Assembly (NCBI GenBank): GCA_013141075.1
Contig: JABFRQ010000001.1
Span: 124,001-188,000, forward strand
From: Methylotenera sp.
GTDB taxonomy: Bacteria; Pseudomonadota; Gammaproteobacteria; Burkholderiales; Methylophilaceae
Length of the DNA stretch: 64,000 bases
Reading direction: 5' to 3'
The notes beneath the pieces are model-generated. The model did not search any database. It worked only from the letters and a program-made list of their open reading frames with translations, and was not told where the DNA came from. The position numbers and the translations under genes are program-made. Below are positions 17,981 to 32,491 of this stretch, piece by piece; the stretch's first letter is position 1; every line of letters begins with the position of its first letter.

Positions 17981-18586
17981 TTACGAACCTGACTCCACAC
18001 TGCGCGGCCAAGGCTTATCGTGGCACACATCACAGCTTTCAAAGGTTATAAAGTGTGAGTTTGGCTTTTTTGTTGCGCCATTTTTGCCTGATAAATGGCA
18101 GTTGTTACAAGTTCTGGGCGTTACTTTTGCTTTATCGTGGCTAAATTCAGCTACCCAGTTTTTAGTGGTGTGGCAAACCGCGCAATCTAAAATGGTTTGC
18201 ACATGGTCGCTAGGCATTGCTTGCTTGTATGCGGCGTTGTGGCAGGTATCGCAACGTTGTGACGATACCGCTGAATGCTTAGTTTGGGCAGGTGTAAAGT
18301 TGCTGTCATTGTGGCAGCTTTCACAAGCAATGGCGCTCGTGGGAATATGTGTTTTAGACATTTGCTTGGCGGTAGGCATAGCGCCTGCATGACAGCCAGC
18401 GCAGGTTGTCGGTGCGGTTTCTGCAATCAATGCGCCCTGATGACAATTAGTACAAGTACATTTATTTTGAATATGTGCGCCAGTAATTTTCCAGCGTGTA
18501 TGTTCAACCCAACGCCCGTTACATGCTGATGTTGCTTGCGCAAGTGCTGGCAACATCAGCAATAAACAAAGTAACAGTTTTTTCAA
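17981..18586 (-). CDS. Periplasmic multiheme cytochrome c, seven CxxCH motifs
   Basis: The product (about 200 residues) contains seven CxxCH heme c sites: CTNCH, CAGCH, CESCH, CDTCH, CAVCH, CNNCH and CDVCH, with extra histidines as axial ligands. It resembles the cytochrome c3-like / doubled-CXXCH families used for electron transfer in the periplasm or at the cell surface. The frame is open from 18613, where no ATG is available and the start would be TTG. I prefer the TTG at 18586, giving MKKLLLCLLLMLPALAQA, a typical signal peptide. It follows the DUF4197 gene closely, so the two are likely cotranscribed. A long open frame on the opposite strand (17949-18392) is a shadow. Redox partner unknown. 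Confidence 0.88.
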   Translation of the reverse strand: MKKLLLCLLLMLPALAQATSACNGRWVEHTRWKITGAHIQNKCTCTNCHQGALIAETAPTTCAGCHAGAMPTAKQMSKTHIPTSAIACESCHNDSNFTPAQTKHSAVSSQRCDTCHNAAYKQAMPSDHVQTILDCAVCHTTKNWVAEFSHDKAKVTPRTCNNCHLSGKNGATKKPNSHFITFESCDVCHDKPWPRSVESGS

Positions 18587-18628
18587 AGCATCAGCCAAAG
18601 CCAGCAATAGCAAGCGGCTTACGATTGA

Positions 18629-24112: not shown

Positions 24113-24142
24113 TTGACACTCTGTTTTGCAGAGTAATATACT
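24113..24142 (+). promoter_or_regulatory. Strong sigma70-type promoter of the 24172-26746 operon
   Basis: A perfect -35 TTGACA (24113-24118) and a -10 TATACT (24137-24142) are separated by 18 bases, about 30 bases before the first start codon. Both boxes are embedded in a double palindromic operator. A start point near 24149 would fall in the second operator. Confidence 0.8.
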
Positions 24143-24156
24143 CTGCAAAACAGAGT
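24118..24156 (+). promoter_or_regulatory. Two tandem palindromic operators inside the promoter
   Basis: The sequence ACTCTG-N5-CAGAGT occurs twice, at 24118-24134 and 24140-24156, with a 5-base spacer. Each unit is itself a perfect 6+6 dyad, and the two units (spacers TTTTG and CAAAA) form together a perfect 17-base inverted repeat. Their centres are 22 bases apart, about two helical turns, so two dimers would sit on the same DNA face. The first unit lies between -35 and -10, the second covers -10 and the start point. This is what an autorepressor site looks like; the winged-helix regulator encoded at 25690 is the natural candidate. Confidence 0.82.
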
Positions 24157-24171
24157 TAAATGAGGTTAATG

Positions 24172-25203
24172 ATGACTAACAATGCAAACCAACAAATTAA
24201 CGCGATTCACAACATGCTTTCAAATGGGCATCGTAACTTGCGCATGGAGGCACATAGCTTGTGGCTATGGGGCCTATCTGGCGGGTTGTTATTGGCAATT
24301 AGCGACCATATTTTAACTGCGTCACAAATTCCCGACTTACATCTACGCCCATTTGCTTGGCTAGCATTGCTTATCGTTGTATTTGGTGGCGTTGCCATTG
24401 CTGATTGGCGTTTAACCAAAAAAGTGAAGGCCACGCGTGACGAGTCATGGTCATTTATTCATCGGCAAATTATTAAAGTGTGGTGGCTGCTCATCAGCAT
24501 AGGGGTTCTGCTCACGTTTGCGATATTTTTCTTTGGTGGTGGCTATATGATCTATTCCGCATGGATTATATTAGTTGGCCTAGGGCTGTTTATACACGGC
24601 TTGTTTTCAGATGAAATGCTAGAATGGGCTGGCGGCGCTTTATTGATTATTGGCATTTTATGTCTAAGTTTTAAGCTACCTTACCAATCAATGAAATGGA
24701 TAGCCGCCTCGATATTTGCTGTAGGACTACCGCTACTCGCCATTATTATCAATCAACAAAAAATTGCTTGGCAAAAATTAGCTTGTTTATTGGCTTGGCT
24801 ATTAGTGACCATATTGCCGCCCATACTAACATTGCGATTGATTTCTAATACAGCACCTGATGTACCCGTGATTTCGTTAGCGCAATTTAAGGCACAGCAA
24901 TCCGTTGTAAAAACGCAGATTGTGACGATTCCTGAAAACACGCTAATTCCTGTCAACATTCAACTCACTGGTGATTTGTTTAAAAACAATCCAAACCTGA
25001 TATTGCCACTTCAACTCAACAAAACCATTGAAATGGTCATGGTAGATGGCAAACCAACTCGCCAAGTGAGGTTTGCAGGCGATAGCTGGCGCCATGCTAA
25101 TGAAGCAGGCTGGGTGCATATTCCGTGGATAAAAGCAGAAATGACGCCCAGCGCCACCCCTGAAATTACCACCAGCTTAATTGTGAATCTACAAGAAAAA
25201 TAG
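24172..25203 (+). CDS. Uncharacterised multi-pass membrane protein
   Basis: I cannot name this protein (343 residues from ATG 24172, which has GAGG six bases upstream; ATG at 24160 and 24169 are alternatives). It has an N-terminal amphipathic segment (NQQINAIHNMLSNGHRNLRMEAHSLWLWG), then about eight hydrophobic segments in the first 230 residues, and a C-terminal hydrophilic domain of about 110 residues (from PDVPVISLAQFK to VNLQEK) that looks beta-rich and contains a Pro-bounded loop (VTIPENTLIPVNIQLTG). The double operator directly upstream and the regulator gene three genes down suggest an inducible envelope function. It may sense or alter the membrane, but this is a guess. Confidence 0.75.
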   Translation: MTNNANQQINAIHNMLSNGHRNLRMEAHSLWLWGLSGGLLLAISDHILTASQIPDLHLRPFAWLALLIVVFGGVAIADWRLTKKVKATRDESWSFIHRQIIKVWWLLISIGVLLTFAIFFFGGGYMIYSAWIILVGLGLFIHGLFSDEMLEWAGGALLIIGILCLSFKLPYQSMKWIAASIFAVGLPLLAIIINQQKIAWQKLACLLAWLLVTILPPILTLRLISNTAPDVPVISLAQFKAQQSVVKTQIVTIPENTLIPVNIQLTGDLFKNNPNLILPLQLNKTIEMVMVDGKPTRQVRFAGDSWRHANEAGWVHIPWIKAEMTPSATPEITTSLIVNLQEK

Positions 25204-26029: not shown

Positions 26030-26746
26030 TTGACCTTTGAAGACTTTACGCTAAAAAATGTGAAAGCGAACGCATTTTCATACAAGCCGCAATCACTCAC
26101 ACCCTACATAGTTTTAGCCGTTATTTTGCATGTTATGTTACTGTGGATTGTAAAATTCACGCCAAATGCGCCAATGAATCTACCCATCATGTTCAATGTG
26201 TATTTAAAGCCAATACTCGCACCAGAGCGACCTGCCGAGCTTGAGCCTAGTAAGCCACCGACATCTTCGCCTGTTCAAAAAACACAAAAATCACCAACGC
26301 CTACCACTAATAGAATTAAACATAACGCGTTTACAGAGCCAACGCCTAACCCAGAGCCCAAACCGATTGCAACACAAGCGAGCACAGAACAGCCCGTTAC
26401 AAGCATTAACATTAGCGCCAATATTGACTTACCAAATCCAAAAATTTCTACTGAGAGTTTATTAGAATCCGCCCGCCGTATTGCCATTGAAGAGGCTAAA
26501 AATATGCCCAAAGAAAAAGGTGATGACATCGCGCTGGCAGATAGGCCAATATCGCCAGAAATTGCAAAAGCCATTGGTAAAAAGAAAAAGCGTAAGGCCG
26601 AGGCTGGCACCTTTACAGTCAACGGCGTTGTCATACAAGTGAACCCTGATGGTAGCTCTAACTGCTTTTTACCGCCACCAGAGTCTTCTATGCCTTACGG
26701 CTCATTTTCACCTCCAACACTTGGAACGCCATGTCCAGGAGATTAA
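26030..26746 (+). CDS. TonB-like, N-terminally anchored Pro-rich periplasmic protein
   Basis: The frame has no ATG before its single membrane segment, so TTG at 26030 (AAGG three bases upstream) is the most likely start, giving 238 residues. The layout is TonB-like: a short N-tail, one membrane helix (about residues 23-42, LTPYIVLAVILHVMLLWIV), then a Pro/Thr/Glu-rich periplasmic linker (PERPAELEPSKPPTSSP, TPNPEPKP) and a small C-terminal domain from about 155 (ARRIAIEEAKNMPKEKG, EAGTFTVNGVVIQVNPDGSSNCFLPPPE). The C-terminus does not look like the TonB beta-domain, and no ExbB/ExbD is near. It starts four bases after the regulator gene. Function unknown. Confidence 0.72.
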   Translation: MTFEDFTLKNVKANAFSYKPQSLTPYIVLAVILHVMLLWIVKFTPNAPMNLPIMFNVYLKPILAPERPAELEPSKPPTSSPVQKTQKSPTPTTNRIKHNAFTEPTPNPEPKPIATQASTEQPVTSINISANIDLPNPKISTESLLESARRIAIEEAKNMPKEKGDDIALADRPISPEIAKAIGKKKKRKAEAGTFTVNGVVIQVNPDGSSNCFLPPPESSMPYGSFSPPTLGTPCPGD

Positions 26747-26850
26747 GTTCCTCAGCATTTTTAGTACGATTTAACTAAACTAAGCAATATTTGTTAAACT
26801 TGTTTGTGTTAAGGTTGCATTCAAATTTAAGATCAGTTTTAATAATATAA

Positions 26851-28335
26851 ATGTCAAAAAAAATTACCTTTTTAATTTGTGCGCTACTTTTTTTGAGCCT
26901 AAGCGCTTGCACTACGCTTAACAATCTCGGCCAAAAGCATAATCCGCAAAATACGGTTAAAACCACTAAAGTCGCGGCGCGTTGGCAAGCGAACTTGCCG
27001 CATGATGGAAAAATAACTGATTTACAACAATTTTGGCAACAATATCAAGACGCTTTATTACTTGAGTTAATTGAAATTGCACAAACAGAATCTGCGACTT
27101 TGGCCTCGGCAAAAGCACGTATTGCACAAGCGCGTGCTAAGCGCGTGCAAACCGATGCCGCTTTGTTGCCAGCGGTGGATGGCTCGGCATCGGCTTCGCG
27201 CAGTGTGCAACAGCCTGCCACCAGCGTGCAAGGTAATGGTGTGCAAGGCGGCGGCAGTAGCGCCTACAATAATGCAAAAGTTGACGTGCAAGCGAGTTGG
27301 GAGCTTGATATTTTCGGCGTAAACCACGCGGCGCGAGATGCAAACCTAGCACAAGAAAATGCTGCGCAAGCCAATTGGCACGATGCGCGCGTAGCAGTTG
27401 CCGCCGAGTTGGCTAACGCGTACTTTAGTCAGCGTTTTTGTGAAAAGCAGTTGAATATTTTAGAAGCTGATGCAAAATCGCGTGCTGAATCATTACGCTT
27501 AACCGAAATTACCGTTGCGGCGGGCTTTTCAGCGCCCGCTAGTGCGCATCTTGCAAGGGCTAGCATGGCCGATGCCGCGCAACAAATTAAAGCGCAGCTT
27601 GCACAATGCGATTTAGATGTTAAAGCGCTAGTCGCACTCACAGGGCTAGATGAGTCAGCCTTGCGCGAAAAACTTAAATCGCAAAGGTTCAACCCAAACA
27701 ATAACGCGCTTAACAGCCTATTTTCGATGAGTGAAGTTCCTGCACAAATAATTACGCAACGACCCGACATTAACGCTGCTGAGGCAGATTTAATAAGCGC
27801 CGCAACCGATATTAGAAGCACTTATGCAGAAAGCTTACCCAAAGTATCGCTCAATGGCTCAATTGGTTGGATGCGGCTTTCTGGTAGCAATTTTAGTAGC
27901 AATGGTAAAACTTGGTCATTGGGGCCAATCTCTATCACGTTCCCCATTTTTCACCCAGGCGTTGCAGAAGCTGGTTTAGCAAGCGCCGAGGCTAATTATG
28001 AAGATAAAGCGGCGACTTATCGCAGCAAAGTACGTTATGCCGTCAAAGAGGTTGAAGATGCCTTAGTGAATTTACATAGTGCCAATACGCGACAAGCCGA
28101 TATTGCAGATGCCGTTAAAAATTATCAAGCTTCATTTGCCGCCACAGAAACCAAGGTAAAGGCTGGCTTCGCAAATTTAATTGAGCTTGAAGAGCAGCGC
28201 CGAAGTCTATTACTCACCGAAACTACCGCGCTAAATAACCTTAAACAACGCACACTAGCTTGGGTGAGTTTGTATCGCGCGGCAGGCGGTGGTTGGAATA
28301 AAAAAGTACTTGCTGAAACTGGAAACTCAAAATGA
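26851..28335 (+). CDS. RND efflux outer-membrane factor lipoprotein (NodT family)
   Basis: The 494-residue product is a TolC-like trimeric outer-membrane channel of the NodT/OprM type. It has a lipobox SLSAC near residue 20, two internally repeated OEP domains (PF02321): LLELIEIAQTESATLASAKARIAQARAKR with DVQASWELDIFGVNHAARDANLA in the first half, and QRPDINAAEADLISAATDIRSTYAESLPKVSLNGSIGW with YRSKVRYAVKEVEDALVNL in the second. It is the first of three genes of a complete RND tripartite exporter and overlaps the adaptor gene by four bases (ATGA). The substrate cannot be told; local winged-helix and TonB-like genes lie upstream. Confidence 0.92.
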   Translation: MSKKITFLICALLFLSLSACTTLNNLGQKHNPQNTVKTTKVAARWQANLPHDGKITDLQQFWQQYQDALLLELIEIAQTESATLASAKARIAQARAKRVQTDAALLPAVDGSASASRSVQQPATSVQGNGVQGGGSSAYNNAKVDVQASWELDIFGVNHAARDANLAQENAAQANWHDARVAVAAELANAYFSQRFCEKQLNILEADAKSRAESLRLTEITVAAGFSAPASAHLARASMADAAQQIKAQLAQCDLDVKALVALTGLDESALREKLKSQRFNPNNNALNSLFSMSEVPAQIITQRPDINAAEADLISAATDIRSTYAESLPKVSLNGSIGWMRLSGSNFSSNGKTWSLGPISITFPIFHPGVAEAGLASAEANYEDKAATYRSKVRYAVKEVEDALVNLHSANTRQADIADAVKNYQASFAATETKVKAGFANLIELEEQRRSLLLTETTALNNLKQRTLAWVSLYRAAGGGWNKKVLAETGNSK

Positions 28336-29423
28336 ATAAAAAAATAATCTTTGCCATTTTAATTGCCTTTGGCGCATTCGCAGGCGGATGCCAAAACAAG
28401 CAGGACAATACTGACAAAAAGACTGAGACCAAAGATGTCGCGCCCAAAGCTAGCCTTTCTGTCAGCACAGTAAAGCCACAGCAAACTTTATTGCACAAAA
28501 CCATTAACGCTAATGGCAACGTCGCGGCATGGCAAGAAAGTAGTATTAGCGCAGAAACTAACGGCTTGTTATTGCGTGAAGTGCTGGTGAATATTGGCGA
28601 CCAAGTCAAGCGCGGGCAAGTATTGGCGCGCTTTGCCGCCGCAACAATAGAAACCGACATTGCACAAATGCAAGCCAATATAGCAGAAGCGCAAGCCATG
28701 CTTACAGAAGCCTCGAGCAATGCTAACCGCGCACGTAGCATTCAAGATTCTGGCGCGTTAAGTAAGCAACAAATTGAGCAATACATCACGGCTGAAGCTA
28801 CAGCCAAAGCACGTTTAAATGCGAGCCAAGCGAACTTAAATGCGCAAAATATCAGACTAAAGCAAACCGCTGTACTTGCGCCTGACGACGGCATTATTTC
28901 GCAAAACCCTGCCACAGTCGGCACGGTGTATGCGGCTGGGCAAGAGTTATTTCGCTTGATTCGCAAAGGCCGCATTGAATGGCGCGCCGATTTAACTTCA
29001 GCCGACATTTCACAAATAAAAACAGGTATGAAAGCCCGCATTACCTTGCCAGATGGCAGCTCCACACACGGAAAAGTGCGCACCATTGCGCCTAGTGTAG
29101 ATGCCAAAACGCGCAATGCTGTGGTGTTTGTAGATATGCCCGCTGGTAGCGCAAAAATTGGCATGTTTGCGCGTGGCGATTTTGTGATTGGCGAAACTAA
29201 CAGCCTCACTTTGCCTAACTCGGCGATTGTGATGCGCGATGGTTTTGCATATGTGATGCAAGTAGAAAGCAACCATAAAATTAAACAAACAAAAGTACAG
29301 TTAGGGCAGCGCAAAGATGACCGCGTAGAAATACTTAACTTAGCGGCAACAGATGCCAATTTTGTAGAAAGCGGCGGCGCATTTTTGGCAGATGGCGATA
29401 GCGTGCGAGTGATTAGCAAATGA
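28332..29423 (+). CDS. RND efflux periplasmic adaptor (membrane fusion protein)
   Basis: The 363-residue lipoprotein (lipobox AGGC, residue about 20) is a HlyD/AcrA-type adaptor. It has a barrel-sandwich hybrid (WQESSISAETNGLLLREVLVNIGDQVKRGQVLARF), an alpha-hairpin (IAQMQANIAEAQAMLTEASSNANRARSIQDSGALSKQQIEQYITAEATAKARLNASQANLNAQNIRLK), a second lipoyl-like half (TAVLAPDDGIISQNPATVGTVYAAGQELFRLI), and a beta-barrel with membrane-proximal domain. It bridges pump and channel across the periplasm. The overlap with the pump gene (ATGA at 29420-29423) indicates translational coupling. Confidence 0.93.
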   Translation: MNKKIIFAILIAFGAFAGGCQNKQDNTDKKTETKDVAPKASLSVSTVKPQQTLLHKTINANGNVAAWQESSISAETNGLLLREVLVNIGDQVKRGQVLARFAAATIETDIAQMQANIAEAQAMLTEASSNANRARSIQDSGALSKQQIEQYITAEATAKARLNASQANLNAQNIRLKQTAVLAPDDGIISQNPATVGTVYAAGQELFRLIRKGRIEWRADLTSADISQIKTGMKARITLPDGSSTHGKVRTIAPSVDAKTRNAVVFVDMPAGSAKIGMFARGDFVIGETNSLTLPNSAIVMRDGFAYVMQVESNHKIKQTKVQLGQRKDDRVEILNLAATDANFVESGGAFLADGDSVRVISK

Positions 29424-32400
29424 ATATTTCTAGCTGGTCCATCAAAAACCCTGTTCCTGCACTGATTTTATTCATTCTGCTGTGCTTGGCTGGCAGCATG
29501 AGTTTTAACAGCATGAAAGTGCAAAACTTTCCTGATTTAGATTTACCTACCGTCACCGTAAGCGCGGCATTGCCAGGCGCGTCGCCAGATCAGCTTGAAA
29601 CGCAAGTGGCGCGCAAAATAGAAAATTCCGTAGCCAAATTGCAAGGCTTGCGTCATATTTACACCACTATTCAAGACGGCGGCGTCACCATTACCGCTGA
29701 ATTTCGCTTAGAAAAGCCCGTGCAAGAAGCGGTAGATGATGTGCGTTCCGCGGTTTCTGAAGTGCGCGCTGACTTGCCTAATGAACTACGTGAGCCAATT
29801 GTCAGCAAGCTCAATATCGCGGGTTCGCCCATTTTAGCTTTCACCATTGCCTCAAACCGCATGGATGCTGAAGCGCTTTCTTGGTTTGTAGATGACGCGC
29901 TCACCAAAAAATTGCTCGGCGTTAATGGCGTGGGCAATGTTGGGCGTGTAGGCGGTGTTAATCGGCAAGTGTGGGTAGAGCTAGATACCGCACAATTGCA
30001 ATCGCTCAACGCCACCGCGGCAGATATTTCACGTAACCTAAGTTTAACGCAGCTAGAAGCCGCAGGTGGCGTAACCAAACTCAGCGGTAGTGAGCAACCG
30101 ATTCGCACCATGGCTAAAGTGAAATCTGCCGATGAATTAGCCAATATGCAAATCGCGCTGAGTGACGGCCGTAACGTGCGCTTAAACCAAGTGGCGAATG
30201 TAATAGACACGATTGCTGAGCCAAAATCTGCCGCATTTTTAGATGGCAAAAGTGTCATTGGTTTTGAAGTGAGCCGTAGCAAAGGTGCCAGCGAGCTTGA
30301 AGTGGGCGCGGGCGTTTATAAAGTGTTAGACGCAATCAAACTGGCGCACCCTGATATTGAAATTACCGAAGCCTTTAATTTTGTGCAGCCTGTGCAAGAT
30401 GAATTTGATGCTTCTATGGTCATGCTTTACGAAGGCGCGCTGCTTGCCGTGCTGGTGGTATTCTTATTTTTGCGCGATTTTCGGGCGACTTTCGTTTCTG
30501 CCGTCGCCCTACCTTTATCCATTATTCCAGCCTTTATCGGCATGAAAATGATGGGCTTTTCTATCAACATTGTGACCTTACTCGCACTCTCTTTGGTGGT
30601 CGGCGTGCTGGTAGATGACGCGATTGTTGAAGTTGAAAATATCGTGCGTCATTTGCGCATGGGGAAATCGCCCTTTGAGGCCGCACTAATTGCCACCGAA
30701 GAAATTGGCTTGGCCGTTGTTGCCACCACATTTACACTCATTGCCGTATTTTTACCTACTGCTTTTATGGATGGCATTCCTGGTAAATTCTTCAAACAAT
30801 TTGGCTGGACAGCCGCGTTTGCGATATTCGCATCATTGCTAGTAGCACGGCTACTCACGCCGATGATGGCCGCTTATTTGATGCAGCCAGCCAAACATGA
30901 AGTAACCAAAGATGGCGCGCTTATGCGCACTTATATGCGCCTTGCACGTTGGTGCGTGAGCCACCGTTTAATCACCTCTGTGGCCGCCATTGCATTTTTT
31001 GTCGGTTCAATTTCGCTCATTCCCTTATTACCAACAGGTTTTGTACCCGCGGACGATAACTCACAAACCCAAGTACGCATTGAACTAGCGCCAGGGGCAA
31101 CATTGGCGCAAACCATTGCAGTGAGCGAGCAAGCACGGCTGATATTAAAAAACATTAAGCATGTGAATAGCGTTTATACCACTGTGGGCGGCGGCGCGGC
31201 GGGTAGCGACCCATTTGCAGGTGGCGGCAGTGCCGAAGCACGAAAATCCACCCTCACCATTCAAATTGACCCACGTGGTAGTCGCCCCAAAAAGCAAGTG
31301 ATTGAAACCGAAATGCGTGAAAAACTGCAAGCTTTAGCAGGCGTGCGGCTAGGTGTAGGTTTAGAAGGCTCTGGCGAAAAATACGTGTTAGCACTCACCA
31401 GCGAAGATAGCAGCGCGCTACAAGTGGCCGCCAGTGCAGTAGAAAAAGACTTACGCACCATAAAAGGCCTAGGCAATATCACCTCAAGTGCGGCACTTGT
31501 GCGGCAAGAAATTATCGTCAAACCAGATTTTGCCGCCGCCGCAGATTTGGGCGTCACTAGCAACGCAATTGGCGAAACGCTACGCATTGCCACGGTGGGC
31601 GATTACGAACAGCTATTACCCAAGCTCAATTTAGAGCAGCGCCAAGTGCCTATTGTCGTCAAACTCAACAATGCAGCAAGGCAAGACCTCAGCACGCTAG
31701 GCAAACTCGCCGTGCCAGGCGCACGTGGTACTGTGCCACTTGAACAAGTCGCCAGCTTGCAGGTGTCTAGCGGACCTGCGGTGATTTCGCGCTATGACCG
31801 CGCCCGAAATGTGCAGTTTAATATTGAGCTTTCTGGCCTACCGATTGGTGACGCCGCAGCAGCCATCAAAAAGCTCCCCAGCATTCAACACCTACCTGCT
31901 GGCGTAGCGCAAGCCGAGCTTGGCGATGCAGAAATGATGGGCGAATTATTTGCGAGCTTCGGCATTGCCATGCTCACGGGCGTGCTATGTATTTACTTTG
32001 TACTAGTGTTATTGTTCAAAGACTTTTTACAGCCCATTACTATTTTAGTCGCCTTACCATTGTCACTTGGCGGTGCGTTTTTAGCTTTATTAGTGGCTGG
32101 CAAAGCGCTTTCTATGCCCTCGCTCATCGGCTTGGTAATGCTCATGGGCATTGCCACTAAAAACTCTATATTACTGGTGGAATACGCCATTATGGCAAGA
32201 CGTGAACACGGTATGACGCGCTTTGAAGCAATTATGGATGCTTGCCACAAACGCGTTCGCCCCATTGTGATGACCACCATCGCCATGACTGCAGGCATGT
32301 TACCAGTAGCCTTGTCGCTTGGCGCAGGCGATGGCTCTTTCCGCAGTCCGATGGCGGTGTCTGTAATAGGAGGCTTGCTAACTTCTACATTACTCAGCTT

Positions 32401-32491
32401 ACTGGTGATTCCCGTGGCTTATACTTTGGTGGATGACGTACAACAGTTTTTTGCTAGGCTTGCTAGAAAATTTAAGCACACTACACCATAA
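29420..32491 (+). CDS. RND multidrug efflux pump permease (HAE1-like)
   Basis: The 1023-residue product has the AcrB-family layout: a first membrane helix (PVPALILFILLCLAGSMSF), a large periplasmic loop (residues about 35-330), six membrane helices, a second periplasmic loop (about 545-850) and six more helices. The proton relay pair D-D is in SLVVGVLVDDAIVEVENI (TM4). Conserved blocks include PDLDLPTVTVSAALPGASPDQLETQVARKIE, and GLVMLMGIATKNSILLVEYA plus KRVRPIVMTTIAMTAGMLPVAL in the second half. It uses the proton gradient to export hydrophobic drugs or other toxic compounds. Similarity cannot identify substrate. A bidirectional terminator follows immediately. Confidence 0.95.
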   Translation: MNISSWSIKNPVPALILFILLCLAGSMSFNSMKVQNFPDLDLPTVTVSAALPGASPDQLETQVARKIENSVAKLQGLRHIYTTIQDGGVTITAEFRLEKPVQEAVDDVRSAVSEVRADLPNELREPIVSKLNIAGSPILAFTIASNRMDAEALSWFVDDALTKKLLGVNGVGNVGRVGGVNRQVWVELDTAQLQSLNATAADISRNLSLTQLEAAGGVTKLSGSEQPIRTMAKVKSADELANMQIALSDGRNVRLNQVANVIDTIAEPKSAAFLDGKSVIGFEVSRSKGASELEVGAGVYKVLDAIKLAHPDIEITEAFNFVQPVQDEFDASMVMLYEGALLAVLVVFLFLRDFRATFVSAVALPLSIIPAFIGMKMMGFSINIVTLLALSLVVGVLVDDAIVEVENIVRHLRMGKSPFEAALIATEEIGLAVVATTFTLIAVFLPTAFMDGIPGKFFKQFGWTAAFAIFASLLVARLLTPMMAAYLMQPAKHEVTKDGALMRTYMRLARWCVSHRLITSVAAIAFFVGSISLIPLLPTGFVPADDNSQTQVRIELAPGATLAQTIAVSEQARLILKNIKHVNSVYTTVGGGAAGSDPFAGGGSAEARKSTLTIQIDPRGSRPKKQVIETEMREKLQALAGVRLGVGLEGSGEKYVLALTSEDSSALQVAASAVEKDLRTIKGLGNITSSAALVRQEIIVKPDFAAAADLGVTSNAIGETLRIATVGDYEQLLPKLNLEQRQVPIVVKLNNAARQDLSTLGKLAVPGARGTVPLEQVASLQVSSGPAVISRYDRARNVQFNIELSGLPIGDAAAAIKKLPSIQHLPAGVAQAELGDAEMMGELFASFGIAMLTGVLCIYFVLVLLFKDFLQPITILVALPLSLGGAFLALLVAGKALSMPSLIGLVMLMGIATKNSILLVEYAIMARREHGMTRFEAIMDACHKRVRPIVMTTIAMTAGMLPVALSLGAGDGSFRSPMAVSVIGGLLTSTLLSLLVIPVAYTLVDDVQQFFARLARKFKHTTP

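Follow-up and report, generated by a model that had tools for sequence, protein, structure and literature searches.

In Bacillus subtilis, the polytopic membrane protein SdpI sequesters the small autorepressor SdpR, the product of the same operon, as described in PMC1626106; background on SdpI-like proteins is given in PMC11995493. The operon analysed here lies in a 64,000-nucleotide stretch of a Methylotenera sp. genome, hereafter the window, and resembles the SdpR/SdpI system in combining a small regulator with a polytopic membrane protein. Its parts are different: the regulator falls outside the SdpR family (18.3 bits vs a cut-off of 100), and the membrane protein, gene 1, has no Pfam match at E ≤ 0.1, with three of its homologues giving no match to the SdpI family at E ≤ 1.

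The regulator is instead a member of PF13601 (HTH_34), with a score of 68.7 bits (cut-off 27) over profile positions 1-80 of 80; the earlier note on this DNA had called the third gene of the operon a small winged-helix regulator. Several related profiles also scored above their cut-offs, all of them far under HTH_34: MarR_2 (29.3 vs 27 bits), HTH_20 (28.5 vs 27), HTH_5 of the ArsR type (25.4 vs 22) and HTH_27 (22.5 vs 22.2). PadR (PF03551), which shares the winged helix, stayed under its cut-off (23.2 vs 27 bits), as did a metal-sensor ArsR model (31.8 vs 55). We read the MarR and ArsR matches as superfamily kinship. Structure predictions were made from two-sequence alignments (mean pLDDT 59.4 and 51.0); the low-confidence model of the regulator (59.4) shows helices and strands in an order that would fit a winged helix and places the recognition helix at about residues 40-53. 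By sequence, its closest solved relative is 1UB9 (E = 5.2e-5), the hypothetical protein PH1061.

Among the matches listed in our searches of the open-access literature, we found no description of the function of the PF13601 family, nor an operator, ligand or target for it. The dyad motif strings were likewise not found in the open-access literature searched, in agreement with the remark in the earlier note that the site was not recognised as a known operator. A self-repressing operon is of an ordinary kind; novelty, as far as that literature shows, seems to lie in the site itself, in a family-wide code and in the residue rule described below. They provide a concrete predicted binding site and a specificity rule for a family that, in the literature searched, appears only as a domain and a solved "hypothetical protein".

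Two dyads at the operon promoter

Upstream of gene 1, the promoter carries two copies of the dyad ACTCTG-N5-CAGAGT (Table 1). Both copies, ACTCTGTTTTGCAGAGT and ACTCTGCAAAACAGAGT, are exact and lie 22 bp apart, as the earlier note had described. The larger perfect inverted repeat that they form is real, with arms of 18 bp rather than the 17 bases given there. The coordinates also bear out that the dyads overlay TTGACA and TATACT, with site 1 in the spacer and site 2 over the start point of transcription, predicted at ~24149. These two boxes, separated by 18 bp, make up the top-scoring promoter of the region, where promoter-like matches as a whole showed no excess (9 vs 6.4, SD 2.7, in shuffles). 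Gene 1 likely starts at 24172, behind a GAGG sequence.

Table 1. Promoter elements and genes of the operon, in window coordinates.
Feature	Position	Strand	Remark
-35 box TTGACA	24113..24118	+	11/12 promoter match; last base is first base of dyad 1
Operator site 1 (predicted), ACTCTG-TTTTG-CAGAGT	24118..24134		fills the -35/-10 spacer
-10 box TATACT	24137..24142	+	18 bp from the -35 box
Operator site 2 (predicted), ACTCTG-CAAAA-CAGAGT	24140..24156		over the -10 end and the inferred start point
Larger inverted repeat from both sites	24118..24156		18-bp arms (24118-24135 and 24139-24156), 3-nt centre
GAGG, likely ribosome-binding sequence for the 24172 start	24162..24165	+	read from sequence
Gene 1, polytopic membrane protein, 343 aa	24172..25203	+	C-terminal domain related to gene 2; no Pfam match
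Gene 2, small lipoprotein-like protein, 131 aa	25274..25669	+	Cys19 conserved
Gene 3, HTH_34 (PF13601) winged-helix regulator, 111 aa	25690..26025	+	specificity candidate Glu43
Possible fourth gene, 238 aa, TTG start	26030..26746	+	4 bases past regulator stop; no Pfam match

The assembly (2.48 Mb, 90% complete) contains two exact copies of the dyad, and these are the two at this promoter. When up to two mismatches were allowed, 28 of 100 shuffles of the window matched the observed two hits, both of which are exact, and the whole assembly yielded 33 hits vs 29 for a reversed control; since the looser hits thus approximate the control, the signal resides in exact matches only.

Placed in this way, over the spacer and the inferred start point, a bound repressor would block RNA polymerase, and the operon would repress itself. 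The HTH_34 protein would most likely dock on each 17-bp dyad as a dimer. We consider it very probable that the dyads are operators of the gene-3 protein and that the operon is self-repressing. As to the components of this reading, the comparisons below lead us to infer strongly that the gene-3 protein is the dyad binder, and the geometry of the promoter points to repression.

Distribution of the dyads and the regulator

Homologues of the regulator were found, own genome included, in 7 of 399 genomes of the order (E ≤ 1e-15), 7 of 369 of the class (E ≤ 1e-22) and 8 of 398 of the phylum (E ≤ 1e-22). The window, the search hits, locus L007 and a plasmid together yielded a clade set of 21 regulators, with G281 (E = 2.5e-17) as outgroup. 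The earlier note had named a lack of the dyads upstream of homologous operons as a refuting result, but they are present at the regulator's own operon in all 21, and paired in 20, with 0-2 mismatches in total per pair. The exception to the pairing, G831, has a single exact site upstream of the regulator. In G881, the pair adjoins gene 1 on a different contig, and its copies are non-mirrored, while G807 displays a third, degenerate site between its two dyads.

Counting a second pair in G401, there are 21 pairs, whose centres are spaced by 21-24 bp in 14 cases and by 31-37 bp in 7, with none at 25-30, as if one helical turn had been added in the longer group. On a tree of 22 regulators, three spacing changes are needed, at least two of them forced and one perhaps concerning the single-site G831, so that the longer spacing may have arisen once or more than once. 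The promoter context is kept as well: of 22 promoters (the 21 pairs and one single site, window included), 18 have TTGAC directly against the upstream dyad, the other four being G611, G479 and G671 (divergent lipoprotein gene beside the site, TTGA-like box on the opposite strand) and G807.

Exact matches follow the regulator closely. The string TTGACACTCTGNNNNNCAGAG, which joins the −35 box and dyad, occurred in 6 of 399 genomes of the order, exactly the six that carry the regulator at E ≤ 1.9e-33, and was absent from all 393 without a close regulator. Here, the samples searched for regulator and string were taken as the same (both comprise 399 genomes, and the 27 listed genomes of the first are all in the second). 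A hypergeometric estimate by hand puts such co-occurrence by chance at ~2e-13, with relatedness ignored. The exact dyad was present in 17 of 19 regulator-bearing genomes (reversed control, 2 of 19), missing only in G352, which has one mismatch per site, and in G281. Among its 31 places in these genomes, 28 belong to the operon of the regulator, a figure that includes the two next to gene 1 in G881. The comparison thus lends strong support to the earlier interpretation of the promoter as a repressor arrangement, the dyad being kept with the regulator clade.

The three exact places elsewhere are one pair and one single site. G401 has a second full pair (L063:4258-4296), ~930 kb from its regulator, with TTGACA and TATACT positioned relative to it as in the window and ~240 bp before a gene for a DUF2846 lipoprotein-like protein; it is possibly a second target of the regulator. 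With the site in hand, targets of the regulator become readable from genomes, and this pair is one candidate. The single site is in G671, ~40 bp ahead of a gene of 915 aa, and is not flanked by TTGAC.

When 60 other relatives were examined, 36 from the genus and 24 from the order, none had the regulator at E ≤ 1e-8, and none had a dyad pair at the window spacing with up to three mismatches; hence, the operon is probably an accessory, horizontally acquired unit. Relatives of the operon include one in a Sideroxydans MAG (69% identity over the best segment), which is built differently: its first two genes encode a protein of 949 aa and one with weak similarity to M50, and the regulator comes last, after a gene 1 that is shorter and lacks the C-terminal domain. 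On an Azospirillum oryzae plasmid (L014; 67.6% identity), both the three-gene order and the operators are as in the window, and their occurrence on a plasmid of a different class suggests horizontal transfer. Viral contigs yielded no exact dyad pair with 3-7 bases between the sites, and phages a lone weak regulator hit (33% identity, E = 1e-5).

The five central bases of the dyads are unconserved between loci, yet they are mirrored within pairs across lineages, at 75 of 105 positions vs 53.6 in shuffles. None of 20,000 permutations reached as high a value, in a test that treats related loci as independent and is inflated to that extent. The mirroring could stem from templated repair of near-palindromes or, alternatively, from a need for two-fold symmetry in the bound complex.

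Half-site sequence, recognition helix and rival readings

The search for sites was extended to PF13601 proteins outside the clade. Among 200 genomes of the phylum, 24 had a match at E ≤ 1e-12, at 28 loci; removal of six in-clade loci and addition of G281 gave an outgroup set of 23, of which 1500 bp upstream were scanned for perfect inverted repeats of each possible 5-base arm (1024 arms), separated by N7. The commonest arm was ACTTT, at 9 loci, compared to a mean per arm of 0.09 (base composition unmatched). ACTCT, the arm of the window, was found at 4 of the 23 loci, joint second with CTTTC, GCGAC and CGCCG. A perfect ACTTT or ACTCT site was missing at 10 loci, four of which have CTTTC arms and six none of the three; the four CTTTC loci have SDSVLSKH as recognition helix. 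A Thermomicrobium plasmid record, from another phylum, carries a perfect ACTTTGTATAACAAAGT. Among haloarchaeal plasmid records, one has two copies with one mismatch each and another a two-mismatch match; a third, as well as Kocuria, gave no site.

Which of the two arms occurs follows a residue of the recognition helix. A perfect site with either arm is present at 33 of the 48 loci examined. There, the residue after [S/T/I]DGNL is Ser wherever the arm is ACTTT (10 loci) and Asp, Glu or Gly wherever it is ACTCT (23 loci). One further aligned column separates the groups, in the wing (Tyr70 in the window), and no others do. The rule was formed on these same 33 loci; five more were fetched afterwards, and all four perfect sites among them obey it (two Ser-ACTTT, two Gly-ACTCT), the fifth, L108, having TQGNL and no site, as does L066, also with TQGNL. 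Because the loci represent few lineages, they amount to far fewer than 37 independent cases, both the Ser and the Asp/Glu/Gly group consisting of a handful of lineages with non-independent loci. These data strongly suggest that one recognition-helix residue, Glu43 in the window, helps to choose the fourth base of the half-site.

The covariation of the site with the recognition helix also bears on whether the dyads might belong to a different regulator in wider use, for which this operon is just one target. The second full pair of G401, so distant from the regulator gene, would suit such a regulator, but a site that varies with the helix of the HTH_34 protein would not, and neither would the concentration of exact dyads at this protein's operon, the absence of the −35/dyad string from order genomes without a close regulator, or the presence of the site in the Azospirillum plasmid module; we regard this reading as very unlikely. 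A chance origin of the dyads was rejected in view of the exact-only signal, the 0/60 count in other relatives, and the contrasts of 17/19 vs 2/19 and 6/6 vs 0/393.

Granting that the HTH_34 protein binds the dyads, it might activate from the spacer in the manner of MerR, given that site 1 is centred there. MerR promoters have spacers of 19-20 bp. At an 18-bp spacer and an 11/12 match, however, untwisting should be unneeded, and activation would leave site 2 placed over the inferred start point, so that we hold this mode to be improbable to a high degree. Another possibility is that the inverted repeat works at the RNA level, as a hairpin that attenuates or terminates transcription or blocks translation; if transcribed whole, it would indeed fold very stably, at −29.5 kcal/mol (z = −8.71). 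A transcript from the predicted start, however, lacks the first arm and is unremarkable against shuffles (z = 0.64), and a hairpin sits poorly with pair spacings of up to 37 bp, with the non-mirrored copies of G881 and with the single site of G831; we give it hardly any credence. Self-repression by the gene-3 protein remains the reading that we adopt.

Membrane partner and neighbouring genes

How such repression might be relieved is suggested by the company that the regulator keeps. A simple hydropathy count showed an ORF with two or more hydrophobic segments directly ahead of the regulator at 19 of 22 outgroup loci, and such an ORF was present at all five of the later loci as well; three outgroup regulators and G831 have no such partner. 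Common descent of gene 1 and the outgroup partners is only suggested, by a single hhalign comparison (94.5%, E = 8.3e-8) in which membrane-composition bias is possible; the hmmsearch matches were weak (best E = 0.0011). By analogy with SdpI, the co-encoded membrane protein would sense a change in the envelope and then release or sequester the repressor, its outer domain sensing something in the envelope and its inner segments touching the repressor. We hold this role of gene 1 with moderate to low confidence. The frequency of the membrane partner hints at what the HTH_34 family may sense. More speculatively, an HTH_34 protein with an upstream multi-pass membrane protein may form a widespread envelope-to-DNA module (Pseudomonadota, Thermomicrobiota, perhaps Actinomycetota and haloarchaea), in which a membrane-controlled autorepressor reads ACTYT-N7-ARAGT and one residue sets the fourth base, a generalization that we offer tentatively, as plausible rather than probable.

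In gene 1 of the clade (10 sequences aligned), a segment at the N terminus, ahead of the first membrane helix, is conserved, together with a charged loop containing RDES.SF. The C-terminal domain is related to the gene 2 lipoprotein (hhalign 97%, E = 9.6e-11), and neither gene 1 nor gene 2 has a convincing solved relative. In the window and in L014, L015, L016 and L017, gene 1 is followed by a gene resembling gene 2; in L027, L031 and L032 this gene is divergent, and the remaining clade loci of the neighbourhood comparison showed none. Two clade regulators have related proteins of ~950 aa encoded in their operon or close by (L007:857-3706 and L045:6608-9454; cluster c4), and the one in L007 contains a HEFTH motif. 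Directly downstream of the operon, at 26030-32491 of the window, lie genes for a proline-rich protein and for what look like an outer-membrane efflux protein (by Pfam match, OEP), an adaptor and an RND-type pump, the latter two named by eye. A further small protein, encoded at 17981-18613 on the minus strand, has numerous CxxCH-like motifs and would appear to be a multihaem cytochrome.
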